Made by a program: the position numbers and the translations under genes. Below the pieces are notes generated by a model. It was given only the letters and a program-made list of their open reading frames with translations, did not search any database and had not been told where the DNA came from. A DNA stretch of 35,285 nucleotides from Acidimicrobiales bacterium. Its GTDB lineage: Bacteria; Actinomycetota; Acidimicrobiia; Acidimicrobiales; UBA8190. Below, in pieces: positions 2,181-34,337 of the stretch. The stretch is taken from assembly GCA_035531755.1 (NCBI GenBank), contig DATKSK010000052.1:1-35285 (forward strand), written 5' to 3'. Position 1 is the stretch's first letter; each line of letters starts with the position of its first letter.

Positions 2181-3161
2181 TCAGCGGGTTGCGGGTGCGG
2201 GGAGGGCCCCGGCGGCGCGGAACCAGTCGACCGTCGCCCGCAGCCCGTCCGCCAGCGTCACCGGCTCGACGTCGGGGAACAGCTCGCGCAGGCGTCGCTG
2301 GTCGGCCTGCGAGTCGCGCACGTCGCCGGCGCGTGCCGGCCCGTGGGCCAGGGTGAGCGGCCGGCCGACGACGTCGCCGAGGACGGCGGCCAGCTCGAGG
2401 AGCGAGGCCCGCCCGCCGAAGGCGAGGTTGACGGGGCCCGCGGCGGTGACGCCGCGGTCGACGGCGTCCGCCAGGATGCGCACCACGCTGCCCACGAAGG
2501 TGAAGTCCCGCGTCTGGCGGCCGTCGCCGTGCACGGGGAGCGGCTCACCCGCCAGGGCGGCGGACACGAACGTGGGCACGACCGCCGCGTAGGCGTGCCC
2601 GGCGCGCTGCAGCGGGCCGAAGACGTTGAAGAAGCGGAAGACGAGCACCGGCAGCCCGAACGACCGGGCGTACGCCAGGCAGTACCCCTCGGCGGCCAGC
2701 TTGCTCGCCGCGTAGGGGCTCAGGGGGAGCGGGGCCAGGTCCTCGCTCGCCGGTAGCGAGCGGTTGGCGCCGTAGACCGAAGAGGAGGACGCCACCACGA
2801 CCTGCGGCCCGCCGGCGTGCCGGGCCGCCTCGAGGACCCGGAGCGTCCCCGTGGCGTTGACCTCGTGGGTGGCGACGGGGTCCTCGAGCGACCGGGGCAC
2901 CGACGCCCGCGCCGCCAGGTGCACCACGGCGTCGGCCCCCTCGAACACCCGGGCGAGGAGCCCGACGTCGAGGATGGACCCTTCGACCACGTCGACGCCG
3001 TCGACCCCCGACAGGTTGTCGGCGTGGCCCGTCGTCAGGTCGTCGAGGGCCACCACGCGGGCGACGCTGGGGTCGGCCGACAAGGTGCGGCACAGGTTGG
3101 CGCCGATGAACCCGGCCCCGCCGGTCACGACCACCCGTCTGCGGTCGGTGGGCACGGTCAC
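2181..3161 (-). CDS. NAD-dependent NDP-sugar epimerase/dehydratase (extended SDR)
   Basis: This is a 326-residue extended short-chain dehydrogenase. The Rossmann motif TGGAGFIG lies close to the N-terminus. The catalytic Ser is in SSSSVYG and the YxxxK pair is in SPYAASKLAAEGY. RFFNVFGP and HGDGRQTRDF are typical of UDP-glucose and UDP-GlcNAc 4-epimerases (GalE/WbpP type). The likely reaction is C4 epimerisation of an NDP-sugar in the cytoplasm. Related dehydratases share the same fold, so the substrate is not certain. I chose the GTG at 3161 because it gives a normal family length and clears the upstream stop at 3196. An ATG at 3233 would add 24 residues of low-complexity Arg/Pro sequence and overlap the 4,6-dehydratase gene. 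It is probably co-transcribed with that gene. Confidence 0.85.
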   Translation of the reverse strand: MTVPTDRRRVVVTGGAGFIGANLCRTLSADPSVARVVALDDLTTGHADNLSGVDGVDVVEGSILDVGLLARVFEGADAVVHLAARASVPRSLEDPVATHEVNATGTLRVLEAARHAGGPQVVVASSSSVYGANRSLPASEDLAPLPLSPYAASKLAAEGYCLAYARSFGLPVLVFRFFNVFGPLQRAGHAYAAVVPTFVSAALAGEPLPVHGDGRQTRDFTFVGSVVRILADAVDRGVTAAGPVNLAFGGRASLLELAAVLGDVVGRPLTLAHGPARAGDVRDSQADQRRLRELFPDVEPVTLADGLRATVDWFRAAGALPAPATR

Positions 3162-3195
3162 TGGCTGCGGCCGGCGCCGGCCCGGCGCCCGGCCG

Positions 3196-5148
3196 TCACG
3201 CGGAGACGGGGTCCTGGTCGACGTCCACGGCATGGGCGTCGAGCGGGGACAGCCGGGGCTCCGGCATGGCCAGCTCGAACAGCAGCTCCCGCACCACCGG
3301 CGCGTCGCGGCGTACCGACGCGTCGCGCATGGCCCGCAGCCCCTCGGCCACCTCCTCCTCCGGCGAGCTCACCGGGACGAGGCGGTGGATGAAGGGATGC
3401 GAGGTGGGGCAGACCTCTTCGTCGGCGCTGTGGAGCTCCTCGTGCAGCTTCTCGCCCGGACGGCACCCGATCATGCGGATGGGGATGTCGGCGCCCTCAC
3501 CGGGGCCCGACAGCCGGATCATGCGCTGGGCCAGGTCGAGGATCCGCACCGGCTTGCCCATCTCGAGCATGAAGATCTCGCGTCCCTGCGACAGCACCGA
3601 GGCCTGCAGCACCAGCTGCACGGCCTCCTCGACGCTCATGAAGAAACGCGTCATGCGGGGGTCGGTCACGGTGATGGGGCCGCCGGCGGCGATCTGCCGG
3701 GCGAAGGTCGGGATCACGCTGCCGCGGCTGCCGAGCACGTTGCCGAAGCGGACCACGGAGTAGGCCGCCCCGGCGGGCGCGTGCGCCAGCACGACTTCCT
3801 CGGCGACCCGCTTGGACGCTCCCATGATGCTGATGGGGCGCACCGCCTTGTCGGTGGAGATGAGCACGAAGCGCGAGGCGCCCGCGGCCGCGGCCGCCTG
3901 GACGACGTTCTGCGTGCCGTAGACGTTGACGTTGACGGCTTCGACCGGGTGGGACTCCAGCACCGGGACGTGCTTGTGGGCCGCCGCGTGGAACACGACG
4001 TCGGGCCGGTGCCGCAGGAGCGCCTCGAACACCGCGGCCCGATCGGAGATGTCCACCAGGAGCTGCTCGCTGGCGCCCGGGAGGATGACGGCCGTGTCGT
4101 GGAGATGGGTTTCGTCGTGGTCGAGGAGCAGGAGCTTCTCGGGGTTGAACTCGGCCACCTGGCGGGCGATCTCGGAGCCGATGGAGCCGCCCGCGCCGGT
4201 GATGAGGACGCGCTGACCGGCGAGCGAGCGCCGCACGGCGGCGAGGTCCGTGCTCACCGTCGTGCGCCCCAGGAGGTCCTCGATGCGAGGCTCGCGCGCC
4301 AGGCGGAGGGGCGCGGTGTGCTCCTTGCCGATAGCCATGTCGCGCGCCGAGGGGAGGATCTTCATGGCCACGCCGGCGGCCTCGGAGGCCTTCAGGGCCC
4401 GTTCGACGAGTTCGGGGGCGGGGTTGGGGATGGCCAGCAGCACCTGCTGGATGGTGTAGCGGTTGGCCGCCGCGGGGATGTCCTCGATGCCGCCCACGAC
4501 GGGCACACCGATGAGCGACAGCCCGTGGCCCCGGCCGTCGTCGTCGAACACCGCCACCGGCACGAGACCGGCGACCGGCGTGCGCAGCATCTCGCGGATG
4601 GCCTCGGCGCCGGCGTCGCGGCTGCCGATGACCGCCACGCGCAGGCCCACGTGGTGCGTGCCGCGCTGCCACGCGAAGAGTCGGGAGTGGAACCGCAGCG
4701 CCCCCATGGCCATGGTGACGAACGCGCACCCCACCACGACGACCTGGAGCGGCACGCGCTCGAGGTCGACGAGCCGCCACAGCGGGCGCAGGGCGGCCAG
4801 GAGGACGAGCGCGGCCACCGCCGACAGCAGGACCTGGCGGGCCTCCTCGATGCCGGCGTAGCGCCAGATGCGGCCGTAGAGGCCGAAGACCCAGTTGGCG
4901 GTGAGGTGGACGACGAGGGCGAGGACGATGAACAGGGTGAAGTGCTGCCAGTAGAGCGCGGGCGGGCGGTCCCGGAAGTAGGTGACCATGGCCACGCCGT
5001 AGGCGGCCACCACGGCCACCACGTCGAGGACCATGAACAGGGCCCGCGCCCGGACGTGCGACGCCCGGGCTGCCAGCCGGTCGCCGCGCAGCGCCGGCCG
5101 CCTGCGCCTTCGTGTGTCGGATCCCCCCCGCCGAACCGCCATCGCCAT
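3196..5148 (-). CDS. Membrane-anchored NDP-sugar 4,6-dehydratase (CapD/WbpM/PglF type)
   Basis: The 650-residue protein has the classic long-form layout. An Arg-rich N-terminus is followed by about four membrane spans (near residues 38-57, 69-88, 107-121, 134-150), a nucleotide-binding-like domain (170-300), and a C-terminal SDR domain. The SDR domain has TGAGGSIGSEIARQ at 317-330, HAAAHKHVPVLE at 387-398, and STDKAVRPISIMGASKR at 431-447. In this family Met replaces the usual catalytic Tyr, and MGASK fits the S/M/K triad. The family converts UDP-GlcNAc to 4-keto-6-deoxy sugars, the first step to bacillosamine, QuiNAc or FucNAc-type residues. It heads a leftward operon with the epimerase, 34 bp away. 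The ATG at 5148 faces the divergent Wzz-like gene across a 231-bp region with a palindrome and a hairpin. Confidence 0.93.
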   Translation of the reverse strand: MAMAVRRGGSDTRRRRRPALRGDRLAARASHVRARALFMVLDVVAVVAAYGVAMVTYFRDRPPALYWQHFTLFIVLALVVHLTANWVFGLYGRIWRYAGIEEARQVLLSAVAALVLLAALRPLWRLVDLERVPLQVVVVGCAFVTMAMGALRFHSRLFAWQRGTHHVGLRVAVIGSRDAGAEAIREMLRTPVAGLVPVAVFDDDGRGHGLSLIGVPVVGGIEDIPAAANRYTIQQVLLAIPNPAPELVERALKASEAAGVAMKILPSARDMAIGKEHTAPLRLAREPRIEDLLGRTTVSTDLAAVRRSLAGQRVLITGAGGSIGSEIARQVAEFNPEKLLLLDHDETHLHDTAVILPGASEQLLVDISDRAAVFEALLRHRPDVVFHAAAHKHVPVLESHPVEAVNVNVYGTQNVVQAAAAAGASRFVLISTDKAVRPISIMGASKRVAEEVVLAHAPAGAAYSVVRFGNVLGSRGSVIPTFARQIAAGGPITVTDPRMTRFFMSVEEAVQLVLQASVLSQGREIFMLEMGKPVRILDLAQRMIRLSGPGEGADIPIRMIGCRPGEKLHEELHSADEEVCPTSHPFIHRLVPVSSPEEEVAEGLRAMRDASVRRDAPVVRELLFELAMPEPRLSPLDAHAVDVDQDPVSA

Positions 5149-5295: not shown

Positions 5296-5379
5296 GGGGC
5301 GCGAATACGCTGACACGGGGTAATGTGGGCTGGTCGGCCCAGAGGCCAGAGGGCGGTCGACCGGGGAAAGATGGCAGCG

Positions 5380-7278
5380 ATGGACTTCAGGGGGGCAGTG
5401 CTTCGCGGCTGGCGTCTCCTCGTCCTGCTCGGGATCCTGGGGGCGGTTGCGGGGTATTTCTCCGCGCCGGCGCCCCCGACCGGGGGGGCGGCAGCCGGGA
5501 CGCGGTTCTACGTGGGCACCGCCGTCATCGCGCCCACGATCGGCAAGGGCGGCATCAGCATGGGCCGGCTCTACCTCGACGTCAAGAGCCCGCAGGTGCT
5601 GGGGATCGCGGCCGCCAGCGCCAACGTCGGCGTTCCCGCCACCCAGCTGTTGGGTCAGGTCACCGTCGAGAACGGGCGGGCCGCCCTCGGCCTCGGCAAG
5701 CGCGGCAACCGCGGCATCCCGATCCATGCGCTCGGCGTCTCGGTGTCGTGGTTCACGCCCGCGGCGGCGACGCTCGCCAACGCGGTGGCGGCCGCGGTGT
5801 CCACGTACATCAACCAACAGGCGGAGTCCGCCTACGCCGTCGACGTGGCGAAGGTGTCGAAAGACGTCGACGCCCTGAAGGCCCAGCTCAACACCGTCGA
5901 CACGCAGATCGCCGCGGCCGGTTCCGGGGACGGTTCGCTCCCGCTGCTCGAGACGCAGCGACGCGTGCTCGCCGCGGAATTGAAGAACCAGGTCAGCCAG
6001 CAGGTCCTGCAGCAGGTCGACGGGCCGAAGGTCCCCGGGTACAACGTGCTGCGGCCGGCCGTCGCCATCCCCGTGGTGGCGGGCAAGCTGACGGTGGCGT
6101 CGGTGGTGAGCCACCGGTCGACGCGCATCCTCGGTGGGTTCGCAGTGGGGCTCGTGGTGGCCGTCGGGATCATCCTCCTCGTCGAGGTCCTGGACCGGAG
6201 CCTGCGCACCGTGCGCGCCACGGAGGAGGCCTTCGACCTTCCGGTGGTGGCGGAGATCCCCGCCCGCGGCATCGGGAGGCCGTCGCTGCAGCGAGCCGTC
6301 GTCGAGGCGCGCCTCGAGGTCGTCGCCGACCCGTTGTCCCCGGCCGCCGAGGCCTACCGGCGGTTGCACACCGCGGTGCTGTTCGAGCCGCTGGCGGCGG
6401 AGATGGCGTTGATCGGCAACGGCAACGGCTACGCCAACGGCAACGGCAACGGCAACGGGAATGGCCACGGCAACGGCCACGGGAACGGGAACGGGAACGG
6501 GAACGGGAACGGGAACGGCTACACGCAGTGGACGCCCGGACAGGGAGCCGGCCCCGGCCAGGCCGTCCAGCCGGCGTACCCGACCGATCCCGCCAACGGG
6601 GGCGAGCTCGTCTACGAGGGCAACGGTCGCAGGTCGCGGCGCCAGGTGATCCTGGTGGTGTCGCCGGGCACCGAGAACACCCGCTCCACGGTGGTCGCCA
6701 ACCTGGCCGCGGTGTACGCCGAAGCCGGCGCGCAGGCGCTCGTGGTCAGCATGGGGGACCTCCGCTGGGGGCGGGCGTCGCCCACGTCGGTGTCGGCGTC
6801 CGAGGGTGAGAAGGACATCGACCCCGAGGACCTCGTCCCGCTGTCCACGCCGTCCGCGGTCGACGGCGTGGCGCGCCTGCAGTTCGACCAGCTGCTCGCC
6901 AGCCGCGGCCAGGTGGTCACCCAGGGCCCGGCCATCATCACCGCGGCGCGTCAGGTGGCCGACACGGTGCTCATCGACGCCCCGTCGCTGCTGCGGGCCC
7001 ACGACGCCATCGCCCTGCTGCCCGCCGTCGACGTCGTGCTGCTCGTGGCGCAGTACTCGGTGACACGGTCCGACGAGGCCCGCGAAGCCGGGGACATGCT
7101 GCGCCGTTTCCGGGCGCCGGTGCTCGGCGTGGCCTTCACGAACGTCCCCGGCCGGACGCGCGGTCCGCGGGTGAAGGACGTCGAGCCCCAGGACGCGCCC
7201 CGCGAGGTCGTGCTGGAGAGCTACGACGCCCCGCAGCCCGCGCCGACCGCGACAGCGACCGGCAGGCTCTGGCTCTGA
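5380..7278 (+). CDS. Wzz-like chain-length/BY-kinase-type protein with degenerate ATPase domain
   Basis: The 632-residue protein has a membrane span near residues 10-26, an extracytoplasmic region with helical segments (about 27-245), and a second span near 248-272. This is the Wzz/CpsC layout. Its cytoplasmic part aligns with the CpsD/BY-kinase fold, with VILVV (423-427) leading into the loop and VLIDAPSLL (530-538) at the Walker B place. The P-loop is gone: SPGTENTRST (428-437) stands where an intact GxGKST would be, and the Walker A' Asp pair is replaced by VVSMGD. There is no C-terminal tyrosine cluster. A 35-residue Gly/Asn repeat (346-380) separates the membrane and kinase-like parts. 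It probably regulates polymer length without kinase activity. The ATG at 5380 is chosen because GGGGAAAG lies 9 bases upstream; an ATG at 5371 is the alternative. Confidence 0.8.
   Translation: MDFRGAVLRGWRLLVLLGILGAVAGYFSAPAPPTGGAAAGTRFYVGTAVIAPTIGKGGISMGRLYLDVKSPQVLGIAAASANVGVPATQLLGQVTVENGRAALGLGKRGNRGIPIHALGVSVSWFTPAAATLANAVAAAVSTYINQQAESAYAVDVAKVSKDVDALKAQLNTVDTQIAAAGSGDGSLPLLETQRRVLAAELKNQVSQQVLQQVDGPKVPGYNVLRPAVAIPVVAGKLTVASVVSHRSTRILGGFAVGLVVAVGIILLVEVLDRSLRTVRATEEAFDLPVVAEIPARGIGRPSLQRAVVEARLEVVADPLSPAAEAYRRLHTAVLFEPLAAEMALIGNGNGYANGNGNGNGNGHGNGHGNGNGNGNGNGNGYTQWTPGQGAGPGQAVQPAYPTDPANGGELVYEGNGRRSRRQVILVVSPGTENTRSTVVANLAAVYAEAGAQALVVSMGDLRWGRASPTSVSASEGEKDIDPEDLVPLSTPSAVDGVARLQFDQLLASRGQVVTQGPAIITAARQVADTVLIDAPSLLRAHDAIALLPAVDVVLLVAQYSVTRSDEAREAGDMLRRFRAPVLGVAFTNVPGRTRGPRVKDVEPQDAPREVVLESYDAPQPAPTATATGRLWL
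6415..6519 (+). repeat. In-frame hexanucleotide repeat encoding a Gly-Asn tract
   Basis: About 17 imperfect six-base units (GGCAAC, then GGGAAC) encode alternating Gly and Asn, broken by a few Tyr, Ala and His. The downstream run of near-identical GGGAAC units (6481-6516) suggests recent slippage growth. Because units are six bases, gain or loss keeps the frame and only changes linker length. Confidence 0.9.
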
Positions 7279-7312: not shown

Positions 7313-8602
7313 ATGGTCCACTCCAACCCGCTGGTCGCACTGCCACTGGCGGTGCTCCTCGCCCTCGTAACCGTCCCCATCGCCCGCAACATGGCGGCGC
7401 GCGAGCGCGACCCGCGCCTGTTCCGGCTGCTCATGGTGGCGGTGGTGACCCACCTGGTGTTCAGCTCGGTCCAGCTGTGGGTGGTCGACCACATCTACCA
7501 CGGGGTCACCGACTACACGCGCTACATCAACCAGGGCGCCCGGCTGGCCAAGCGCTACGACTCGTTCAACTTCTCGACCGCCGGGATCAACCCGCCGGTG
7601 AAGATCCTCGGCCAGGGCTCGGTGTCGATCGCCGCCGGCGTCGTCATGGCCATCATCGGCGTCAACAAGCTGGGCCTGTTCTACGTGTTCAGCTGGTTGT
7701 CGTTCCTGGCCACCCTCGGCTTCTACCGGGCGTTCTGCGTCACGTTTCCCGAGGGCAGCCACCGCCGCTACGCCCTCATGGTCTTCTTCCTGCCCTCGCT
7801 GCTGTTCTGGACGGCGGGGATCAGCAAGGAGACGATGATGTACCTGTCGATGGGCATGGGCGCCTACGGCGCCGCCCGCATCCTGGCGCACCAGCGCGGC
7901 GGGGCGGTGCTCCTCGTGATCGGGACGGTCGTCGGTGTGTACGTCCGGCCCCAGGAGCTCCTGCTGTTCCTGAGCGCCTTCGCCGTGGCGGGCCTGTTCC
8001 GCCGGCGCGGCGCGGGGAAGTCGCTGCGGGGGCTGCGCCGCATCGCCGTGATGGGGCTCCAGGCCGCCCTGCTGCTGGCGGCGGTGTCGTTGTCGCAGCA
8101 ATTGGCCAAGCATGCGCCCGTCTTCAACCTGACGCAGCTCGCCCGGAACAACGTCGGCCAGGCCAGCAGCGTCAACTACCACCCCGGGCCCGCGGGGTAC
8201 CCGCGCGACATCTACACCGTGCTGTTCGACCCCCTGCCCTTCAACGCCCACGGGACGGCCCAGCGCGTGGCCGCCTTCGAGAACCTGGTGATCATCGTCC
8301 TCATCCTGGCGTCGCTGCGCCGGCTGCGCCGCGTGCCGCGCGCCGCGTTCGTCCGGCCCTACGTGCTGCTGTGCGTCATGTACTCGACCGCGTTCCCCTA
8401 CGCTTTCGCCGCGCTCAACAATCTCGGGCTCATCGACCGCGAGCGCGTCCTGCTGATGCCGTTCTTCCTCGTCCCGCTGGCGATCCCGGTCTCGCCCCGG
8501 GGCAGCCCACCCGCATATCCGTGGGAGTACAGCGAAGGCAAGCGCAAGCGCCAGTCCCGCCAGACACGGTGGGGCGCGGCACCGGCCGGGGCGCGGCGCT
8601 AG
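7313..8602 (+). CDS. Polytopic membrane protein, candidate Wzy-like polymerase
   Basis: This 429-residue, strongly hydrophobic protein has about nine or ten predicted spans. A larger loop in the first third contains DHIYHGVTDYTRY and FNFSTAGINPP. Another extracytoplasmic-looking loop contains NYHPGPAGYPRD. FLPSLLFWTAGISKE is a pattern common in bacterial surface-polysaccharide membrane proteins. The tail is basic (KRKRQSRQTR). It begins 34 bp after the Wzz-like gene and is probably co-transcribed with it. Wzz and Wzy normally work together, so a polymerase role is reasonable. Wzy proteins have little conserved sequence, so a GT-C enzyme or another membrane protein remains possible. The ATG at 7313 lacks a clear ribosome-binding site. 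Confidence 0.65.
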   Translation: MVHSNPLVALPLAVLLALVTVPIARNMAARERDPRLFRLLMVAVVTHLVFSSVQLWVVDHIYHGVTDYTRYINQGARLAKRYDSFNFSTAGINPPVKILGQGSVSIAAGVVMAIIGVNKLGLFYVFSWLSFLATLGFYRAFCVTFPEGSHRRYALMVFFLPSLLFWTAGISKETMMYLSMGMGAYGAARILAHQRGGAVLLVIGTVVGVYVRPQELLLFLSAFAVAGLFRRRGAGKSLRGLRRIAVMGLQAALLLAAVSLSQQLAKHAPVFNLTQLARNNVGQASSVNYHPGPAGYPRDIYTVLFDPLPFNAHGTAQRVAAFENLVIIVLILASLRRLRRVPRAAFVRPYVLLCVMYSTAFPYAFAALNNLGLIDRERVLLMPFFLVPLAIPVSPRGSPPAYPWEYSEGKRKRQSRQTRWGAAPAGARR

Positions 8603-15453: not shown

Positions 15454-15620
15454 TTCCCCTGGTCGCACCGGGCGATGGTAGCGGCGACGGGCCGCCGACT
15501 GTCGCCAATGGGCCCGGGGCGGAACTAGGATGGCCAGGCGGGTTGGCGGAGCACGAGGCGGAACCGGGGGGAATCGCGATGTCAGCCATAACGGCGCCGC
15601 TGTCCGGCGAGGAGGGCGCG
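15451..15620 (+). repeat. Duplicated promoter/leader/5'-coding segment, copy A
   Basis: This segment matches 25189-25352 along most of its length. Shared blocks in the same order are CTGGTCGCAC, ACTAGG, GGGTTGGCGGAGCA, GCGGAACCGGGGGGA and GTGTCAGCC/ATGTCAGCC, with near-equal spacing (63 versus 64 bp between the first two, 55 versus 58 bp from ACTAGG to the start codon). Here it drives the exporter permease gene. Similarity continues into the first dozen codons and then fades. Confidence 0.85.
15526..15531 (+). promoter_or_regulatory. TAGGAT -10-like box of the exporter operon
   Basis: TAGGAT lies 53 bp before the ATG at 15579 inside the duplicated leader, and its counterpart at 25261-25266 is TAGGCT. 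Preservation in both copies supports a promoter role. The -35 is not clear. Confidence 0.5.
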
Positions 15621-16517
15621 CTCAAGGTCTTCGACGTGTCGCTGGTGCCGGCCGACCCGCCGGCGGAGCTCGTCTACCAGCACAAGCCCGACCTCCTGCG
15701 CTCGGCGCGCGAGCTCCTGCGGCGCGGCGAGGTGATCTTCACCCTGGCCGAGCGCGACATCCGCGCCCAGTACAAGCAGGCCGTCCTGGGCGTGGCCTGG
15801 GCCCTGCTGACCCCGCTCGTCAGCCTGGGCATGTTGTTCCTGCTGGCCAAGAACGTGAAGGGCTTCTCCATCGGGGGGAACGTGCCCCTCATGCTCAACA
15901 TGTACGTGGGCCTGGTCACCTGGGGGCTCTTCGGCGGCGCCATCGGCGGTGGCGCCAACTCGCTCGTGTCGAACAAGTCGCTCATGGCCAAGAGCCACTT
16001 CCCCCGGGAGTGCTTCCCGCTGTCGCAGATCCTCGGATCGGCCTTCACCTCCCTGATGGCCACCGTGCCGCTGGCCGTCCTCTTCGCCGTGTACGGCTTC
16101 GCGCCGCGGGCCGCGTCCATGTGGGCGCCGGTGTACCTGCTCATCGAGGTCCCCATGACCGTGGGGCTGGTCCTGTTGGTGTCCTCGGTCATCGTGCAGA
16201 TGCGCGACCTCCAGCAGATCATCCCCATCCTGATGCCGCTGGTCATGATCATCAGCGTCATCAAGCCCATGTCGGTGGAGACCCACCACGCCCTGCACGC
16301 CAGCCCCACGTTCTTCGTGCACGGCTGGCTGCGCCTCGCCTACTGCGTGGTGAACCCGATGGCGCCGGTCATCGACAACATGCGGGCGTCGGTGCTGCTC
16401 GGGTTCGGGCCCCAGTGGTCGATGCTGCTGTGCGCGGCGATCGGGGCGTGTGTCTACCTGGTCGGGGGCTACGTCATCTTCAAGAAGCTCGAGGTGAACT
16501 TTGCCGACCTTTCCTAA
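15579..16517 (+). CDS. wzm: ABC-2 type polysaccharide export permease (Wzm-like)
   Basis: This 312-residue protein has a cytoplasmic N-terminus carrying RDIRAQYKQAVLGVAWALLTPL, the amphipathic helix and first span typical of Wzm/TagG permeases; five more spans follow. NKSLMAKSHFPRECFPLSQI is the conserved cytoplasmic loop that meets the ATPase, and MRDLQQIIPILMPL lies in the later half. It forms the membrane channel that exports a lipid-linked polysaccharide across the inner membrane. The ATG at 15579 is preceded by GGGGGGA at 7 bp; an upstream ATG at 15543 would include the leader. The ATPase gene starts 17 bp before this stop. Confidence 0.93.
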   Translation: MSAITAPLSGEEGALKVFDVSLVPADPPAELVYQHKPDLLRSARELLRRGEVIFTLAERDIRAQYKQAVLGVAWALLTPLVSLGMLFLLAKNVKGFSIGGNVPLMLNMYVGLVTWGLFGGAIGGGANSLVSNKSLMAKSHFPRECFPLSQILGSAFTSLMATVPLAVLFAVYGFAPRAASMWAPVYLLIEVPMTVGLVLLVSSVIVQMRDLQQIIPILMPLVMIISVIKPMSVETHHALHASPTFFVHGWLRLAYCVVNPMAPVIDNMRASVLLGFGPQWSMLLCAAIGACVYLVGGYVIFKKLEVNFADLS

Positions 16518-17691
16518 GGGGACGGTCCACGCCGAGCAGGTCTGGAAGCGCTTCCGCGCCGATCGCACCCTGCCGCTGTTCCAGGAGCAGATCAAGCTCT
16601 TCGGGCGCTGGCTGAAGGGCGAGCGCCGCGACTTCCGGTGGGTGCTGCGCGACATCAACCTGCACGTGGAGCCGGGCAAGACCCACGGGATCATCGGCGT
16701 GAACGGCTCGGGCAAGTCCACCCTGCTGAAGATGATCTGCCAGACGACGTTCCCGTCGGCCGGCTCGATCACGTCGGTGGGCCGCATCGGAGCGCTCCTC
16801 GAGGTGCGCTCCGGCATCCACCCGGACCTGTCGGGCCGGCAGAACGTCTTCCTCTACGGGAACATCCTGGGCCTGAGCCGGACCGAGATCGCCGCCAAGT
16901 TCGACGACATCGTCGACTTCGCCGAGATCGGCGACGCCATCGACCGCCAGGTGAAGTTCTACTCGACCGGTATGGCCATCCGACTGGGCTTCGCCATCGC
17001 CGCCTTCCTCGAGCCCGACATCCTGCTCGTGGACGAGGTGCTGGCGGTCGGCGACGCCCGTTTCCAGCAGAAGTGCCTGGAGCGCATCAGCCAGGTCGTC
17101 GCCAACGGGACGACCCTGTTCTACGTGTCGCACGACCTGCCCACCGTCGAGGCCGTGTGCGACCAGGCCATGTGGCTCGCCGACAGCTTCGTGCGGGCCG
17201 ACGGGCCGGCGCGCGACGTGGTCAACCTGTATCGGGCGTCGGTGGAGGAGCAGGCGTCGATGGCGGTGTCGAACGACACCGGCGTGCGCGTGCTCAAGGT
17301 CGAGGTGACCGGGCCCGACGGCGGCCAGGCGCGGTCGGGCGAGGAGGTGCACATCCGCATCGTGGCCGAGTCGGAGCAGGCCATGTTCGGGGCCTTCCAT
17401 CTCGGGGTGTCCCAGGGCACGGCCATGCCCGTGTTCGTCCTGCGCTACGCCAGCTCGTTCCCCGAGGGCCAGTTCGAGCTGCGCTGCCGGCTCCAGAGCC
17501 TGCCCCTGCCCAAGGGCCGCTACTCGCTGTGGGGGGCGATGCGCGCCCCCAAGGGGAGCGGGCCCACGGCCATGCTGCCGTGGCAGCCGCTGACGTCGTT
17601 CGAGGCCTTCGGCCCCGACGCCATCAGGGCGCCGTCGGGCGTGATGGTGTTGTCGCCGGTGTACGTCCCCGCCGACTGGGAGCTGTCCTGA
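16501..17691 (+). CDS. wzt: ABC exporter ATPase (Wzt-like) with C-terminal extension
   Basis: This 396-residue protein has Walker A GVNGSGKST (66-74), GRIGALLEVRSGIHPDLSGR (94-113), the signature YSTGMAIRLGF (154-164), and Walker B ILLVDEV (174-180) followed by the conserved LAVGDARFQ. This is the TagH/Wzt pattern. Residues from about 240 form a second domain with beta-rich sequence, in the place where Wzt proteins carry a glycan-recognition domain. That domain may read a terminal modification before export. It starts at a TTG (16501), with GAGGTG close upstream, overlapping the permease by 17 bp. No better start exists before the conserved region. Confidence 0.93.
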   Translation: MPTFPKGTVHAEQVWKRFRADRTLPLFQEQIKLFGRWLKGERRDFRWVLRDINLHVEPGKTHGIIGVNGSGKSTLLKMICQTTFPSAGSITSVGRIGALLEVRSGIHPDLSGRQNVFLYGNILGLSRTEIAAKFDDIVDFAEIGDAIDRQVKFYSTGMAIRLGFAIAAFLEPDILLVDEVLAVGDARFQQKCLERISQVVANGTTLFYVSHDLPTVEAVCDQAMWLADSFVRADGPARDVVNLYRASVEEQASMAVSNDTGVRVLKVEVTGPDGGQARSGEEVHIRIVAESEQAMFGAFHLGVSQGTAMPVFVLRYASSFPEGQFELRCRLQSLPLPKGRYSLWGAMRAPKGSGPTAMLPWQPLTSFEAFGPDAIRAPSGVMVLSPVYVPADWELS

Positions 17692-17749: not shown

Positions 17750-18691
17750 ATGACGGCGCCGTCCCCCTCGTGCCGCATCGCGGTGCACATCGGCTACCAC
17801 AAGACCGCCACGACGTGGTTCCAGCAGATCGCCCTCGGCAGCCACCCCGCCATCACCCCGCTGCTCGGGGGCAGTGAGTTCGGCGTGGTGGCGTCCGACG
17901 CCTTCGTCCGCCAGCTCGTCTTCGCCCGCGACAGCGAGTTCGACGCCGGCGACGCCCGCCGGCTGTTCACCGAGCGGGCCGGCGCCGCCGCCACCGACCC
18001 GGGCCGTACCGTCGTGGTGTCGGCCGAGCGCCTGTCGGGGCACGCCGCCAGCGGGGGGTACGACAGCATCAGGATCGCCGACCGGGTCCACGCCACGCTG
18101 CCCGAGGCGAAGGTCTTCTGGATGCTGCGCCACCAGGCCGAGGCCATCCGCTCGGAGTACAAGCAGATCGTGGTGGCCGGGTGGCCCGGCGCCGTCGCCG
18201 CCACGCTCGCCCCCGAGCCGCGCATGAAGACGACCGGCATCGACCTCGCCTACTGGGAGTACGACCGCCTGCTGTCGGCCTACGCGCGGCGCTTCGGCCG
18301 GGACAACGTCAAGGTCGTCGACTACGGGGAGTTCACCCGCGACCCGGGGGCCGTGCTGGCGCGGTTGGCGGCCTTCCTGGAGGTCGCCCCCTGGGACCTG
18401 TCGGCCGAGGAGATGGCGACGCGCGTCAACGAGGGGGAGTCGGACCGCGAGACGCGCACGCGCCAACGGCTGAACCACGTCACCAGGACGGAGCTGAACC
18501 CGTACCCGCCCGTGGACGTCCCGAACCGGGTGTCGGCGCGCATCGTCAAGCTCAGCCGGGCGCTGCCGGGCGGCCGGCCCCTGTTCCCGGCGGGGTTCGA
18601 CGACTGGGTGGGCGAGCGCTACCGGGAATCGAACCGCCGGTTGGCCGACGACTGGGGGGTCGTCCTGACGCGCTCGGGGCCGGCCGCCTGA
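17750..18691 (+). CDS. Sulfotransferase-like protein 1
   Basis: The 313-residue protein has a PAPS 5'-phosphate loop, GYHKTATTWFQ, near residues 15-25. The 3'-phosphate segment WMLRHQAEAIRSEYKQ lies at about 124-139. DYGEFTRDPGAVLARLAAFL fits the later part of the fold. It would move sulfate from PAPS to a sugar hydroxyl in the cytoplasm, before or during glycan assembly. It follows the exporter pair after 58 bp and is probably in that operon. It is only distantly like the three other sulfotransferases at 27350-30206. The target sugar is unknown. Confidence 0.75.
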   Translation: MTAPSPSCRIAVHIGYHKTATTWFQQIALGSHPAITPLLGGSEFGVVASDAFVRQLVFARDSEFDAGDARRLFTERAGAAATDPGRTVVVSAERLSGHAASGGYDSIRIADRVHATLPEAKVFWMLRHQAEAIRSEYKQIVVAGWPGAVAATLAPEPRMKTTGIDLAYWEYDRLLSAYARRFGRDNVKVVDYGEFTRDPGAVLARLAAFLEVAPWDLSAEEMATRVNEGESDRETRTRQRLNHVTRTELNPYPPVDVPNRVSARIVKLSRALPGGRPLFPAGFDDWVGERYRESNRRLADDWGVVLTRSGPAA

Positions 18692-21040: not shown

Positions 21041-21115
21041 GCCACGCCCGCGCCAACGCCACGCCCGCGCCAGCGCCACGCCCGCGCCACGCCCGCGCCA
21101 GCGCCACGCCCCGGC
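21041..21115. repeat. 17-bp imperfect tandem repeat between convergent genes
   Basis: Units GCCACGCCCGCGCCARC start at 21041, 21058 and 21086, with shortened units at 21075 and 21103. GGCTACG flanks the array on both sides (21031 and 21113). It fills most of the 123-bp gap between the methyltransferase stop and the sulfatase stop. Confidence 0.8.
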
Positions 21116-22626
21116 TACGGCTCGGCGCCGCCCTCCCCGGCCGGGGCGGGCGGGCCCGCCCCCGGGACGCCGCGGCGCCCGAGCCGCGCCCAGGAGCGCG
21201 GGCCCTTGCCCAGGAGACGGCGTGTCAACGAGGCCACCGTGCGCGACGGGGGAGGCGCGCCGAACACCGGGGTGCGCGACGAGGTGCGGACCAGCCGCTG
21301 CAGCAGGCGCGCCTCGAGGTCGCGCTGCACGTCGGCGAACTCCCCGGCGCCGGCGAGGTTGACCGACTCGTCCGCGGACCGGTCGAAGAGGAGATAGGTC
21401 TCGCCCGCGGCGTTGAGGGCGATCTTCCAGTCGGCGGTGGCCAGCATCACCTCGCCGTCGTGCTCGCACAGGGCGTCGGTCCGCGGCGGGCCCGCCACGC
21501 CCCCCCGCACGGCGGCCGCCAGGGAAACGCCCATGCGGAAGGCGCCGGCATCGGCCATGCCGGCGAGGTCGAGGACCGTCGCCCCCACGTCCATCAGCTC
21601 GACGGGGCGGTCGACGACGCCCGGCGGGCTCCCCGGGTCGCGGACGATGAGCGGGACGCGGGCCGCACCGTCGAGGAACACCTTCTTGTAGAGCAGGCCG
21701 GCGTCCCCGTTCATCTCCCCGTGGTCGGAGGTGAACACGACGACGGTGCGGTCCCACTCGCCCCGGTCGCGCACGGCCTGTACCAGCTCGCCGACGAGGT
21801 GGTCGATGAGGCTGACTTCGCCGGCGTAGTCGGCCCGCAGGGCCGCGATCTCGACCGCGCTGAGCGGCGGGCGCCGCCCGATGCGGGCGTCGAGGTCGCC
21901 CGACGGGCGCTCGGCGAGCGACCGCGGCGCGTCCCGGGGCGGCGGCATGGCCGCCGGGTCGTACGCGGTCGCCCACGGCGCGGGCGTGTCCCAGGGCTCG
22001 TGCGGTCCGGGGAACCCCACGTAGCAGCACCACGGCTCGGGCTTGTCGTACTCGCGCAGGTAGCGGGCCGCGCTCCTGGCCACATAGGTGTCGTAGTAGA
22101 GGTCGAGGCCCACGGGCGTCGGGCGCACGAGCCACGGGGTGGTCCGCAGGCGCTCGGCCACGTCGTCGCGGTAGGCGCGTCGGACCCCGTGGCGGTCCCA
22201 CAGGTCGGTGAGGTTGGCCGTGCAGGTCTGCAGGGCACGTGGGCCACCGACCTCGTCGACCTCGTCGAAGCCCAGGCGGTTGAGCAGGCCCGTGCTGGCG
22301 CGCAGGTCCCCGCCGTCGGGGTGCAGGTGGTTCTTGCCGAACATGCTGGTGCGGTAGCCGTTGCGCCGGAGCCTGCCGAACCACGTCTCCAACCAGGCGG
22401 GGTACGTCACGATGCGGTTCGCCTGGACGCCGAGGTTGTGGGGATAGAGACCCGACGCCAGGCTGAAGCGGGCGGGGACGCACACGGGCGAGGTCGTGAA
22501 GCAGTCGGTGAACAGCGTGCCCGCACCGGCCAGGGCGTCGAGGTTGGGCGTCGCGCTCCAGCCGTTGACCACGCCGAGGCTGTCGGCGCGCTGCTGGTCG
22601 GTGAGGATGAAGAGGATGTTGTCCAC
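21115..22626 (-). CDS. Sulfatase (Cys-type, formylglycine-dependent family)
   Basis: The 503-residue protein starts DNILFILTDQQRADSLG, giving the metal-binding Asp near the N-terminus. TSPVCVPARFSLASG (about 45-59) holds CxPxR with Cys49, the residue converted to formylglycine. FGKNHLHPDGG and FTSDHGEMNGDAGLLYKK are also family hallmarks. It would hydrolyse sulfate esters. No signal peptide is visible, so it is probably cytoplasmic unless exported by another route. It starts at a GTG 11 bp after the YfhO-type gene upstream and should be co-transcribed with it. The alkaline-phosphatase superfamily also includes phosphodiesterases, but CxPxR favours a sulfatase. The C-terminal Gly/Ala/Pro tail runs into the tandem repeat. 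Confidence 0.9.
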   Translation of the reverse strand: MDNILFILTDQQRADSLGVVNGWSATPNLDALAGAGTLFTDCFTTSPVCVPARFSLASGLYPHNLGVQANRIVTYPAWLETWFGRLRRNGYRTSMFGKNHLHPDGGDLRASTGLLNRLGFDEVDEVGGPRALQTCTANLTDLWDRHGVRRAYRDDVAERLRTTPWLVRPTPVGLDLYYDTYVARSAARYLREYDKPEPWCCYVGFPGPHEPWDTPAPWATAYDPAAMPPPRDAPRSLAERPSGDLDARIGRRPPLSAVEIAALRADYAGEVSLIDHLVGELVQAVRDRGEWDRTVVVFTSDHGEMNGDAGLLYKKVFLDGAARVPLIVRDPGSPPGVVDRPVELMDVGATVLDLAGMADAGAFRMGVSLAAAVRGGVAGPPRTDALCEHDGEVMLATADWKIALNAAGETYLLFDRSADESVNLAGAGEFADVQRDLEARLLQRLVRTSSRTPVFGAPPPSRTVASLTRRLLGKGPRSWARLGRRGVPGAGPPAPAGEGGAEP

Positions 22627-22637
22627 GCCCCACCCCG

Positions 22638-25091
22638 TCAGCGGTCGGGGGCGTGGATCGTCGGTCCCCGCCCGCCGACGCCCGTGTCGGGCGGCGCCTC
22701 GGCCGGGCTCACGGGGGCGACGATACCGTGCGGGGCCGGCGGCTCCGTGGACACCCCGGCGTCACCGGGCCCGGCGCCGGCGGGCCGTCGTCTCGACACC
22801 ACGAGGGCACCTGCCAGGCCCAGCGCGGCGACGAGGGCGAGCCCGATGCCGACGGAGAAGGCGCGCGGCCAGTAGTGCAGCTCCACGATGTGCCGGCCCG
22901 CCGGGACGCGTGCCTGGAGCATGGCGCCCGCCAGGGTGTGCAACGGCAGCGGCCGGCCGTCGATGGTGCCGTGCCAGCCGGGGACGCCGGTGAGGTGCAG
23001 GCGCAGCGTCTGCGGCGTGTCGGCGTCGACGACGACCCTCCACGACGCCGGGCCCGGGTGGCCGACGGTCACCGGCGTGCCGTCGTCGTGCCCCGACGCC
23101 GGCGACGACCCGCCCGACACGGGCGTCAGGGTGGCGGCGGCGGCGCCGGGGATGCGGTACAGCGACTCGTCGCCCACGCGCCGGTCGAAGACGCCCCCGC
23201 CCGGCCCGCGCGCCCCGGCGGGCTCGAGGACGAAGCCGACGCCGTAGCGACGGGCCACGGCGGCCGACGTCACCGCCGGGCAGAAGACGGAGATGGGGTT
23301 GCCGAGGCCGCCGGGCTGCCCGGTGGCGGCCTGCCAGGAGCGGAAGAGGGCCCGGGGGGCGACGGGGTCGTAGACGTCGAGCTCCTGGACCGCGAACGCC
23401 ACGTTGACGTCCTGCACGATCCCCAGGTCGCCGGGCACCGAGCACGACCGCGCGCCGAAGCCCACGACGGCGCTCCCCACCGCCTGCTTCAGGGCCACCT
23501 CCGCCGGGGTCGGCGCCAGGAACGACGGGCTCGACGACCACAGCGGCGCTCCGGCGGTCACGAGGAAGGCCGTCTCGCAGGCCAGCAGCACGGCGACGAC
23601 CCCGGTCCCGGTCCCGAGAGCGAACCGGCGACGGCGCGCCGGGCGCGGCGCAGGGCGTCGGCGCCGGCCCGCCACCACGAGCGTGCCGGCGACACCGAGG
23701 CCCGCGGCCGTCTGCACCCCCGGCCACACGAAGCTCCCCGCCCGCACGGCGGCGTCGGCCGGAGGCAGGTGCCCGCGGCCGAGCGCCCATACCATCGCCA
23801 GGACGACCGCGGCCAGCGCGAAGCCGCCACCCAACCATCGCCGGACCCGCACGTCGCGCCACGAGCGCACCACGGCGTCGGCGCCCACGCCCGCCAGCAC
23901 CGCCACCGCGAACGCGAACAGGATGGTGCTGCGGTGCCAGCGCACCTTGCCCAGCGCCCCGACGAGGGGCGGGCTGAACATGAGCACGATCATGACGGCG
24001 GTGACGGCACCGAGCGCGACGACCTCGGGGTGCCGGCGGCGCATGGCCAGGGCCGTCGCCGCCAGGACGACGGCGATCACCCCGACGTAGACGGCCGACT
24101 CCAGGTAGCTGGCGTTGCCCGACAGGTGCCCGAACCAGTGGCTCCCCGCCACCGGCAACCCGTCGAACCCCTGGAACACCACGGAGCCGATGTCGTGCAG
24201 GGGCAGCGTCGGTGTGCCGCCCTTGGCCGTCCTGATCCCCGCCGCGGTGACCTGGAGCCCGGGAAGAAGCAGTGGAGCGCCCAGCGCCGCCCCGACCGCG
24301 GTGGCCAGCACCAGGTCCACGGCGGGGCGCAGGACGGGGCCCGAGCCCCCGAACGCCGGGGTGCGCAGGGCCAGCAGGACGGCGACGAAGACGCCGAGGC
24401 CGAGGGCCATGACCACGAGCGCGTCGGGCTGCCCGGCGTAGATGGTCAGGGCCAGCACGACGGCGAAGAACGTGACGGTCCGGGCCCGCCGGTGCCCACG
24501 CACCACCAGCACGGCGGCGGCGAACAGCCAGCCCGCCCAGGACATGACCGACGCCACCGGCCAGCCCAGCCACCCGAAGAACGGACCGCTGAGCTCGTAG
24601 ACGGTGCCGGCCATGACGGCGCCGAGCAGGCCCAGGCGCAGCGAGCGCCCGAGCACGTACACGCCGGTCCCCGCGATGACGATCGTCGTCCACACCTGGA
24701 CCGTGAAGGCCAGGCGCAGGGGGACCAGATAGCCCACCAGCGTCGGCAGGCTGAAGGTCGCCGACTGCCAGTTGAACGCCAGGGGCATGCCGAGGGCGCT
24801 GTAGGGATTCCACAGCGGCAGGTGCCCGTGGTGCACCTGGGTCCAGGCCTGGGCCGTCCAGGGGATCATCTCGGTGATGAGGTCGGCGGTCTGGGGGTTG
24901 TGGACCACGACCCCGGGCTGCTTCGACAGACCCTGGCGCGACAGGATGTCGAACGGTCCCAGGGAGGCGCCGTGCGCCAGCGCCGGCGCCATGACGGCGA
25001 TGGCCGCCGCCACCAGCCAGGCGATGCCCACCAGGTCCCCGACGCCGAACGCCGGCACCTGCCGCGGCTCGTTCGGAGGGGCGGCGGGCAT
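22638..25091 (-). CDS. YfhO-type polytopic membrane protein, copy 2
   Basis: This 817-residue protein begins with a membrane span, then SLGPFDILSRQGLSKQPGVVVHN, PLWNPYSALGMPLAFNWQS and YELSGPFFGWLGW. About a dozen spans follow. The non-membrane C-terminal part has LYRIPGAAAATLTPV and VPGWHGTIDGRPLPLH, the PGWxxxxDG motif common near the end of YfhO proteins. A last span precedes a Pro/Gly-rich tail. It is most like the partial copy at 1-1979. The family is linked to glycosylation of cell-envelope polymers outside the membrane. I chose the ATG at 25091, where similarity to the other copies begins soon after; an in-frame start at 25202 would add only Arg/Pro-rich sequence. It is followed by the sulfatase. 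Confidence 0.85.
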   Translation of the reverse strand: MPAAPPNEPRQVPAFGVGDLVGIAWLVAAAIAVMAPALAHGASLGPFDILSRQGLSKQPGVVVHNPQTADLITEMIPWTAQAWTQVHHGHLPLWNPYSALGMPLAFNWQSATFSLPTLVGYLVPLRLAFTVQVWTTIVIAGTGVYVLGRSLRLGLLGAVMAGTVYELSGPFFGWLGWPVASVMSWAGWLFAAAVLVVRGHRRARTVTFFAVVLALTIYAGQPDALVVMALGLGVFVAVLLALRTPAFGGSGPVLRPAVDLVLATAVGAALGAPLLLPGLQVTAAGIRTAKGGTPTLPLHDIGSVVFQGFDGLPVAGSHWFGHLSGNASYLESAVYVGVIAVVLAATALAMRRRHPEVVALGAVTAVMIVLMFSPPLVGALGKVRWHRSTILFAFAVAVLAGVGADAVVRSWRDVRVRRWLGGGFALAAVVLAMVWALGRGHLPPADAAVRAGSFVWPGVQTAAGLGVAGTLVVAGRRRRPAPRPARRRRFALGTGTGVVAVLLACETAFLVTAGAPLWSSSPSFLAPTPAEVALKQAVGSAVVGFGARSCSVPGDLGIVQDVNVAFAVQELDVYDPVAPRALFRSWQAATGQPGGLGNPISVFCPAVTSAAVARRYGVGFVLEPAGARGPGGGVFDRRVGDESLYRIPGAAAATLTPVSGGSSPASGHDDGTPVTVGHPGPASWRVVVDADTPQTLRLHLTGVPGWHGTIDGRPLPLHTLAGAMLQARVPAGRHIVELHYWPRAFSVGIGLALVAALGLAGALVVSRRRPAGAGPGDAGVSTEPPAPHGIVAPVSPAEAPPDTGVGGRGPTIHAPDR

Positions 25092-25188
25092 CCCCCAGGG
25101 TAGCGCCGGCTCGTCGTGCGCCGCCCGTGGGCCCGCCCTGGGACCGGGGCGCAGTCCCCGGGGCCGTGCGCAACCGCCGGCCCGCCTT

Positions 25189-25352
25189 TTCCCTGGTCGC
25201 ACGGGCCGGAGTCCTGTTCCGCCGCGCAGCGTCCTGTTCCGATTGGGGGACGGCTCGCACTAGGCTTGCCAACGGGTTGGCGGAGCAGGAGCCGAGCGGA
25301 ACCGGGGGGACTCGCGGTGTCAGCCAGTGCGCAGCCGCTCTCCGAGGAGAGC
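25189..25352 (+). repeat. Duplicated promoter/leader/5'-coding segment, copy B
   Basis: This is the partner of 15451-15620. Both copies end in a short coding start, here GTGTCAGCC at 25317. Beyond about 13 codons the similarity to the permease gene stops, and after the short frame ends the two-domain GT2 begins. The segment looks like the 5' part of an exporter permease gene placed in front of a different gene. Confidence 0.85.
25261..25266 (+). promoter_or_regulatory. TAGGCT -10-like box of the GT2/sulfotransferase operon
   Basis: This is the counterpart of TAGGAT at 15526 within the duplicated leader. It lies 51 bp before the short frame at 25317. The -35 is not clear. Confidence 0.45.
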
Positions 25353-27349: not shown

Positions 27350-28381
27350 GTGGCGCCCGATCCCGGCACCGGGTCCAGCGCGCCGCGAGCCGCCGGCGAG
27401 GCGCGCCCCACCCCGAACCTGTTCATCGTGGGGGCGCCGAAGTCCGGCACCACCGCGCTCGCCACCTACCTGGGCAGCCACCCCGACGTGTTCGTGGCGG
27501 GGAAGGAGCTGACCTACTTCGGCGGCGACCTCGTCTTCCGGACCCGCAAGGGCGGCCGGTGGCAGATCGGCTACGACGCCTATCTGGGTTGGTTCGCGGA
27601 GCACGGTGCCGCCCGCTACCGCGCCGATCGGTCGGTCTTCTACCTCTACTCCTCGCAGGCGGCCGCCGAGATCCGCGCCTACGACCCCGACAGCCGCGTC
27701 GTCGCCCTGCTGCGCAACCCGGTCGACCAGATGCACTCGCAGCACAGCGAGATGCTGTTCCAGGGCGAGGAGGACATCGCGTCGTTCGGGGAGGCGGTGG
27801 CGGCCGAGGAGGCCCGCCGCCGCGGCGAGCGCGTGCCGCCGGGGTGCCAGAAGGTGTTCGGGCTCCTCTACCGTGACATCGCCCGCTATGGCGAGCAGGT
27901 CGAGCGCTACTTCTCCGCGTTCGGTCGCGACCGCGTGTGCGTGGTGCTCTACGACGACCTCGTGGCGGACGCCGACGCCGCCTACGGTCAGGTCCTGCGG
28001 TTCCTCGACGTCGACGCCGCCCACCGGCCCGAGTTCGGCGTGGTGAACGCCAACAAGGTGGTCCGCAGCCCGCGCGTGCGCGACCTCCTGCGCCATGCGC
28101 CGCCCGGGATCCGTCGGGTCGGTCGCCTGGTGGTCCCCGACGAGCACGCCCGGGCCGCCCTGCGGCGCCGCCTGCACACGCTCAACACCCGCCGCCAGGC
28201 CCGGCCGCCCATGGACCCCGAGCTGCGTGGCCGCCTGACCGCCGAGCTCGCCCCCGACATCCGCAGGCTCGAGGCCCTCCTCGACCGCGATCTCGGTGCC
28301 TGGCTGGCGCCCGCCGGCGGTGGCGCCGGTCCGGGCCGGGCGCCGCGCCCCGGCATCACCCTCGACGGACGGGCCCGATGA
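27350..28381 (+). CDS. Sulfotransferase 2
   Basis: The 343-residue protein shows a textbook PAPS-binding pair. FIVGAPKSGTTALATYLGSH near residues 24-43 is the 5'-phosphate loop. VVALLRNPVDQMHSQHSEML near 117-136 is the 3'-phosphate segment with its Arg and Ser. YADDL-like VVLYDDLVAD follows near 196. This pattern matches heparan-type and bacterial glycan sulfotransferases. It would add sulfate to a sugar hydroxyl or amine; the deacetylase in the locus could supply free amines, but that is speculation. GTG at 27350 lies 3 bp after the GT2 stop, so the two are coupled. The last 20 residues are Gly/Pro/Arg-rich. Confidence 0.92.
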   Translation: MAPDPGTGSSAPRAAGEARPTPNLFIVGAPKSGTTALATYLGSHPDVFVAGKELTYFGGDLVFRTRKGGRWQIGYDAYLGWFAEHGAARYRADRSVFYLYSSQAAAEIRAYDPDSRVVALLRNPVDQMHSQHSEMLFQGEEDIASFGEAVAAEEARRRGERVPPGCQKVFGLLYRDIARYGEQVERYFSAFGRDRVCVVLYDDLVADADAAYGQVLRFLDVDAAHRPEFGVVNANKVVRSPRVRDLLRHAPPGIRRVGRLVVPDEHARAALRRRLHTLNTRRQARPPMDPELRGRLTAELAPDIRRLEALLDRDLGAWLAPAGGGAGPGRAPRPGITLDGRAR

Positions 28382-34173: not shown

Positions 34174-34197
34174 CGGGGGCAGTGTAATTGGGAGTGC

Positions 34198-34241
34198 AAT
34201 TGTGGGCCGGGTGCCCCGTTGTAATTGTGGGCCGGGTGCCC
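34198..34241. repeat. Pair of 19-bp direct repeats in a divergent promoter region
   Basis: AATTGTGGGCCGGGTGCCC occurs at 34198-34216 and 34223-34241, 25 bp apart. A related TAATTGGG is at 34185-34192. The gap is between YfhO copy 3 (start 34173) and the lipoprotein (start 34338). A protein bound to both, or a small duplication, could explain it. Confidence 0.75.
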
Positions 34242-34301
34242 ATCGTGCTCCCGGCCGGGCGCCCGCCAGGCGCGAATCGCCATCGCACCAGGTGGATCGC
34301 C

Positions 34302-34307
34302 TAATAT
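34302..34307 (+). promoter_or_regulatory. TAATAT -10-like box of the lipoprotein gene
   Basis: TAATAT lies 31 bp before the GTG at 34338 in otherwise GC-rich sequence. No clear -35 is visible. Confidence 0.4.
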
Positions 34308-34337
34308 GGCCGCTGGTCAATCCTTGGGGGGTCACAC

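Follow-up and report, generated by a model that had tools for sequence, protein, structure and literature searches.

In the current model, PCP-2 co-polymerases need cycles of tyrosine phosphorylation. Wzc, VpsO, Etk and CapAB have the catalytic motifs of BY kinases (BYKs) and a tyrosine tail; the protein described here has the same fold, interface-helix position and co-polymerase link, and lacks both. According to PMC12004946, EcpK (with EpsV) of Myxococcus xanthus and HfsB (with HfsA) of Caulobacter likewise have the BYK fold without Walker A, Walker A' or the Tyr tail. These two proteins speak for the existence, in Gram-negative bacteria, of a phosphorylation-free branch, and a scaffold role has been proposed for them. 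The same text, after Cuthbertson et al., describes SMc01795 and others as Gram-negative fused co-polymerases with a degenerate kinase part, and PMC4182512 describes PssP2 of Rhizobium leguminosarum, also Gram-negative, as a co-polymerase without Walker A, A', B or Tyr cluster; we liken SMc01795 and PssP2 to our protein by description only. CapB1 of Staphylococcus aureus is a BYK that is reported to be inactive in vitro and is discussed as a pseudokinase (PMC3795738). It differs from our protein in that its structure was solved with ADP-Mg bound (4jlv, by its title), so that CapB1 keeps its nucleotide site.

BY pseudokinases, fused ones included, are therefore already in print for Gram-negative bacteria. 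Here we describe a fused actinobacterial clade with a fixed replacement motif, a joint loss of the tail, a probable loss of kinase function in place and an ABC-exporter setting; none of the titles and abstract openings listed in our searches of open-licence literature shows an actinobacterial BY pseudokinase. EcpK and HfsB resemble our protein in being tied to a PCP-2 co-polymerase within a polysaccharide locus (PMC12004946). They differ in being stand-alone proteins of Gram-negative Wzx/Wzy pathways, whereas ours is fused and actinobacterial; EcpK also lacks Walker B, whereas the present clade keeps the Walker B acid; and the present clade has a new invariant motif, an interface helix in most members, and a split gene in G397 only. 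We consider it reasonably likely that the protein is a phosphorylation-independent BY pseudokinase scaffold, fused to a co-polymerase and serving co-polymerase assembly.

The window, that is, the whole stretch of DNA analysed (35,285 nucleotides), is an entire contig (C52) of a 3.28 Mb Acidimicrobiales genome with a completeness of 96%. An ORF at 5323-7278 on the forward strand is open throughout and has candidate starts at ATG 5371 and ATG 5380; most relatives begin with MEPI[DSN][FY] or similar at the same point. The predicted order of domains is a first transmembrane helix, an extracytoplasmic region, a second transmembrane helix, a juxtamembrane stretch, an interface helix, a linker, a P-loop-fold domain and a short tail. 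The features are:

5371 to 7278, forward strand: fused co-polymerase-like/BY pseudokinase gene, 635 aa (632 aa from ATG 5380)
5392 to 5475, forward strand: first transmembrane helix, from hydropathy (helix 6-30 in the low-confidence model)
6118 to 6207, forward strand: second transmembrane helix and DRSLRT juxtamembrane stretch, from hydropathy
6349 to 6369, forward strand: EAYRRLH, by sequence comparison the counterpart of the EX2RX2R ring-interface motif, with the last Arg changed to His
6414 to 6519, forward strand: (Gly-Asn)n low-complexity linker, from sequence (model pLDDT <50)
6661 to 6690, forward strand: SPGTENTRST, the former Walker A, its S, E and R invariant in 16/16 clade members
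6739 to 6765, forward strand: LVVSMGDLR, the former Walker A', with one residue inserted, from alignment with relatives
6967 to 6984, forward strand: VLIDAP, the Walker B position, Asp in the window protein
7150 to 7275, forward strand: C-terminal tail without a Tyr cluster, 1 Tyr per 42 residues

The first-pass annotation had said that the chain-length half looks normal, which needs correcting. Two transmembrane helices flank an extracytoplasmic region as in PCP-2a, judged by hydropathy, and Foldseek rows 1-34 for a model of this half are all co-polymerase entries (Wzc, Wzz/FepE, KpsE). The Pfam evidence does not follow: the half has no Pfam Wzz match, 0/13 clade members match Pfam Wzz at E<=0.1, and in the window's own genome PF02706 gives no match on it at E<=1. 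The region of the second helix gives weak, below-cut-off matches to the chain-length family models TIGR01006 and TIGR03007. The model is poor (pLDDT 49), and its comparison with Wzc and KpsE by VIA gives Z <=12.4 at an rmsd of 10-16 Å, a weak grade for helical models. The probable co-polymerase identity of the half rests on the two hydrophobic helices, the chain-length matches and this low-confidence model. KpsE is a PCP-3 protein of ABC-dependent capsule export, and the window contig also has an ABC exporter (see below). Our protein differs from KpsE in its kinase-like cytoplasmic domain, which the PCP-3 family is not known to have.

Between the interface helix and the P-loop domain sits the (Gly-Asn)n linker; helix and linker both went unmentioned in the first-pass annotation. 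In CapB, the EX2RX2R motif accounts for half of the octamer interface (PMC3795738). The form EX2RX2[RK] is present in 12 of the 14 clade members whose region is read in a single frame, and departures are seen in the window (EAYRRLH), in one of the two G456 copies (EAYQMLR) and in the split G397 copy (EAYRMLW).

No Pfam family matches the window protein above its own cut-off, and the NCBIfam BYK model TIGR01007 matches the C-terminal part at E 2.7e-9 with 33-37 bits against a cut-off of 108. TIGR01007 also matches 13/13 clade members, weakly (best E 7.7e-12), and AAA_31 matches 2/13 (best E 0.064). A phmmer search of the PDB places MinD first (E 0.00069) with Wzc close behind (0.00086). The fold model, built from 5 sequences, has a mean pLDDT of 54 and a pTM of 0.53, with the core mostly at 70-90 and the linker disordered, and its best Foldseek match is Wzc (3la6, E 1.1e-9). 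VIA comparison gives VpsO at Z 16.3 (163 aligned, 3.3 Å), Wzc at Z 16.0 (173 aligned, 3.0 Å), CapA1B1 at Z 15.3 (171 aligned, 3.0 Å) and the first ParA at Z 13.8 (167 aligned, 3.1 Å); ParA and MinD appear in both methods, scoring below Wzc, Etk, VpsO and CapB. Judged by this model, the domain has a BYK-type P-loop fold, in agreement with the earlier view that the fold is kept around the lost motifs.

The Walker A motif GxGK[ST] is absent from the window protein and from 16/16 members of the clade to which it belongs. SPGTENTRST had been proposed as its replacement, and it aligns at equal length with, for example, SPGPSEGKTT of intact relatives, so that the P-loop Lys has become Arg and the preceding Gly has become Thr, without deletion. 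The Walker A' Asp, also reported as out of place, is indeed gone: the first Asp is missing and DLR lies one residue out of register in LVVSMGDLR. VLIDAP, reported as kept, does retain Walker B. All 16 clade genes have Arg for the P-loop Lys and fit the pattern S-x3-E-x2-R-x5-N-L, with Ser or Thr before the Arg in 15/16. The sequences point to a catalytically inactive domain. A cryptic kinase or NTPase, with the Arg and the displaced acids taking over the catalysis in some other way, would gain from the conservative nature of a Lys to Arg change and from the Walker B acid, present in 16/16 (Glu in 12; Asp in 4, the window protein and 3 others). We regard it as very improbable, since the Gly before the Lys, the register of the A' Asp and the Tyr substrate tail are all lost, and since even L130 and L065, relatives with only the GK to GR change, lack a Tyr cluster.

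The tail has gone together with the P-loop. We defined a Tyr cluster as >=2 Tyr within 15 residues and counted 83 of the 102 domains in our tree (see below), dropping 19 with <30 residues past the domain. The tail of the window protein, with its single Tyr, had been reported as lacking the Tyr cluster, and this holds for the clade: a cluster is present in 1/16 members (the exception, L003, has two Tyr within 15 residues), against 34/34 intact members on the clade's side of the tree. Among the other intact members a cluster is found in 27/28 with a long enough tail, the row without one being L066; 18 more lie outside the count. Further BYK-like proteins with an altered Walker A are L064 (Catellatospora), L031 (G033), L071 (G106), L180 (G397), L130 (G025) and L065 (a Dehalococcoidia MAG). 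Outside the clade, 0/5 degenerate proteins with a tail have a Tyr cluster, two of them, L130 and L065, being those in which only GK to GR has changed. P-loop loss and tail loss are concordant in 2/2 independent pairs on supported branches (5 pairs when all branches are used), too few for significance. That the P-loop Lys and the Tyr tail are lost together points to a simple, low-cost rule for recognising BY pseudokinases missed by automatic annotation.

How widely is the loss shared? A scan of genome contigs with the single window protein found no relative, and search profiles were built from the first relatives. With these, the degenerate gene was found in 3/17 sampled genomes of the window's own family. 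Among 397 sampled genomes of the order, 46 matched at 1e-15 and one further clade member was found; 4 matching genomes belong to the clade as far as read. Of the 53 matches there, 23 had no locus attached; the P-loops of 4 of them were read from loci retrieved earlier, which leaves 19/53 P-loops unread. The family of that further member has the gene in 12/172 genomes, with 13 genes, all degenerate. At class level, 395 sampled genomes yielded matches in 18, of which 4 belong to the clade, and scores show a gap between 182 bits in the clade and 106 bits outside it. Of the 15 matches outside the clade, 14 have GK[ST] and one, L130, has GR. The lowest score of a clade member is that of G397, 126 bits in the second-family search. 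In all, 16 degenerate genes are present in 15 genomes from two families of one order, and the relatives include MAGs of Acidimicrobiales and Acidimicrobiaceae.

In a tree of the 102 domains, from which the P-loop columns were left out, these 16 genes form one clade with support 100/99. The loss is thus shared by a clade, an alignment-based check that the first-pass annotation had itself suggested. A degenerate protein of G106 (SPSSETETGG) is the sister of the clade with moderate support (94/86), and its 5.8 kb contig has none of four marker neighbours of the pseudokinase gene. Across the tree the P-loop state changes >=5 times, with GR scored as lost.

Three members have unusual gene structures. 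G456 carries a tandem pair of pseudokinase genes (L143:8041-12522), with GNGNGH repeats abundant in one tail. In G016 the gene is split over two contigs, and the C-terminal contig, L107 (G016:C92), starts inside the (Gly-Asn)n linker. In G397 the co-polymerase ORF stops soon past the interface helix, L151:8593-10379 spans both ORFs, and an ATGA overlap at L151:9504-9507 offers a start for the pseudokinase ORF. The G397 arrangement looks like a natural two-protein version within the clade, similar to PCP-2b or EcpK/EpsV, although it comes from a single assembly in which an error is possible.

The degenerate genes are under constraint. Averaged over 120 pairs, the differences at codon positions 1, 2 and 3 amount to 0.386, 0.302 and 0.578 for the whole domain, and to 0.297, 0.198 and 0.56 for the 18 codons around the former P-loop. 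The former P-loop stretch varies less than the domain average, and the remodelled pocket is constrained. That motifs known as essential in BYKs have gone might suggest a decaying pseudogene, which we find hardly credible and reject: across 15 genomes the frames are open, the neighbours are shared and the codons are constrained. An assembly or frameshift artefact as the source of the motif is also rejected, as many genomes have the motif in common.

Constraint on the pocket raises the idea of a sensor, in which the remodelled site binds another ligand (such as a second messenger, a nucleotide sugar or the head group of a lipid) through its fixed Glu and Arg and switches assembly on binding. Instead of eroding, the former P-loop has gained a Glu and an Arg that are invariant, and its first and second codon positions vary less than those of the domain on average. 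A salt bridge with a structural role, or a contact surface for another protein, would be expected to be just as invariant, however, and we found neither ligand nor precedent; we therefore consider a sensor unlikely. The preferred reading remains that of a scaffold, and the domain is probably not an enzyme.

The genes around the pseudokinase bear on its origin and its pathway. The main ones are:

3196 to 5148, reverse strand: PglF/FlaA1-like nucleotide-sugar dehydratase, a divergent, conserved neighbour (Polysacc_synt_2, 3.7e-105)
2181 to 3233, reverse strand: NAD-dependent epimerase, a frequent neighbour (Epimerase, 8.5e-58; 11/14 relatives' loci)
7313 to 8602, forward strand: conserved multi-pass membrane protein directly downstream (44-54% identity)
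15543 to 16517, forward strand: Wzm-like ABC-2 exporter permease (NF050109, E 6.8e-8, below cut-off)
16501 to 17691, forward strand: Wzt/TagH-like exporter ATPase with a C-terminal extension (ABC_tran; PDB ABC and TagH/TarH chains)

The PglF-like dehydratase is found in 12/14 relatives' loci at 62-66% identity, the other two stretches ending at a contig end. A homologue of the membrane protein is present in 14/14 (non-adjacent in G002). The window copy of this protein has no Pfam, NCBIfam or PDB match; PMT_2 matches 2/12 of its homologues, and it is possibly a polymerase or a GT-C enzyme. For the exporter, the L185 homologue of the permease passes ABC2_membrane, and the NCBIfam TagH and Wzt models match the ATPase below cut-off.

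We compared these loci with 11 loci from 10 genomes of sister lineages, 10 with an intact BYK and one with GR. The membrane protein has a homologue in 11/11 (27-38% identity) and the PglF-like enzyme in 8/11 (51-57%). Sister lineages thus keep an intact, Tyr-tailed BYK among homologous neighbours. By contrast, the other intact-BYK loci of G000, G002, G016 and G345 have none of the four marker neighbours in the stretches examined. Given these two observations, loss in place is the simplest reading: kinase function was probably lost at the locus itself. The tree rejects a recent origin of the pseudokinase from the intact kinase of the same genome.

Could the pseudokinase instead be an inactive partner or inhibitor of an intact BYK in the same genome, acting through mixed rings? 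It is true that 13/15 pseudokinase genomes also carry a BYK with GK[ST]. In the window genome it lies on another contig, C46; the window ORFs scanned include no second intact BYK, the window annotation being partial. But an intact BYK is also present in 4/5 sampled genomes of genus g189 that lack the pseudokinase. The intact BYKs fall in other, distant parts of the tree, the four loci above share none of the four marker neighbours, and two pseudokinase genomes, G410 (98% complete) and G409 (69% complete), have no intact BYK at E<=1e-8. Co-occurrence counts, tree and neighbours together disfavour a partnership, which we consider quite improbable.

The scaffold reading has to be set in its export pathway. 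A Wzm/Wzt-like pair lies on the pseudokinase contig in the window and, about 5-21 kb away, in 9/14 relatives; contigs with Wzm- and/or Wzt-like genes are L106, L143, L147, L150/L201, L151, L152, L195, L199 and L200. In G405 such genes are absent from the roughly 60 kb examined, and the contigs of G410, G412, G415 and G016 are short or break off close to the gene in the direction examined. PF01943, the flippase family, and PF02397, that of the initiating transferase, both lack a match on the pseudokinase contig in 7 pseudokinase genomes, an absence that holds for the contig only, contigs being fragments. On the intact-BYK contig, both are found in G000 and G002, PF01943 in G456, PF02397 in G345 and G405, and neither in G404; G410 has no PF02397 match. 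The first-pass annotation had proposed a pseudokinase kept for a structural or sensing role in polymer length control. The structural role gains from the 16-gene clade, the motif, the constraint and the fold; polymer length control is uncertain, because PF01943 and PF02397 are missing from those seven pseudokinase contigs and the window contig has a Wzm/Wzt-like exporter.

The sister loci suggest that this setting is old. PF01943 is found on the locus contig in 0/10 sister genomes, PF02397 in 5/10, and some intact sister loci also have ABC genes: L185 has both Wzm and Wzt, L186 and L188 have Wzm, and L184 and L192 give weak Wzt-like matches at 28-30% identity. Since PF01943 is absent from the sister-locus contigs too, a setting without Wzx seems to predate the loss of the kinase, and this co-polymerase lineage may work with ABC export at pseudokinase and intact loci alike. 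The idea that the kinase was lost because of a change to ABC export is unsupported, given that some intact sister loci have such genes and that none of the ten sister contigs has PF01943.

We propose the following for the scaffold. An ordinary BYK at the locus would have lost its nucleotide-chemistry residues and its Tyr tail at the base of the clade or slightly deeper, and the remodelled pocket would have been fixed after that loss. What the domain would keep is the structural side of BYK function: its interface helix and its former active-site face may form or stabilise a ring under the membrane, which would hold the extracytoplasmic co-polymerase cage together and dock partner proteins of the glycan machinery, with assembly controlled without tyrosine phosphorylation. 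A non-catalytic role is supported by the clade-wide loss, the invariant motif, the constraint, the mostly kept interface helix, the loss of the tail and the BYK fold. Homology, the fold match, shared loss, constraint and shared neighbours are computed results; from them we infer catalytic inactivity, ring formation and an action on the glycan pathway, in export or in length.

Several points count against a scaffold. In Wzc, the Tyr tail is reported to dock in the adjacent active site and to contribute to holding the octamer, so that loss of the tail might weaken the ring. The ABC-type exporter on the contig is a second point, since textbook accounts of ABC-type export do not call for a ring around Wzy. 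The near tie of MinD and Wzc in phmmer, the departures from the interface motif, and the poor models of the co-polymerase half and, from 5 sequences, of the kinase domain also weigh on that side.

A bolder version combines pathway and pocket: a co-polymerase lineage of this order (and class) uses a Wzm/Wzt-type ABC exporter without Wzx, and in one clade the Glu/Arg pair replaces ATP and locks the assembled ring. We offer this as a doubtful idea. If true, it would be a phosphorylation-free, ATP-free co-polymerase in the ABC-dependent glycan export of an actinobacterium, and no description of one came up among the papers listed or read in our searches. The clade itself adds an actinobacterial fused case to the phosphorylation-free branch, and sister lineages with an intact kinase allow relatives to be compared for what the fold does without the chemistry.

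The rest of the window has further genes of a glycan locus. Sulfotransferase-like genes lie at 17750-18691, 27350-28381 and 28854-30206 on the forward strand, the third below the Pfam cut-off, and a sulfatase lies at 21115-22626 on the reverse strand. Judged by its gene content, the locus may make a sulfated glycan. Two large YfhO-type membrane proteins, at 22638-25202 and 31870-34506 on the reverse strand, flank glycosyltransferase-2 genes.
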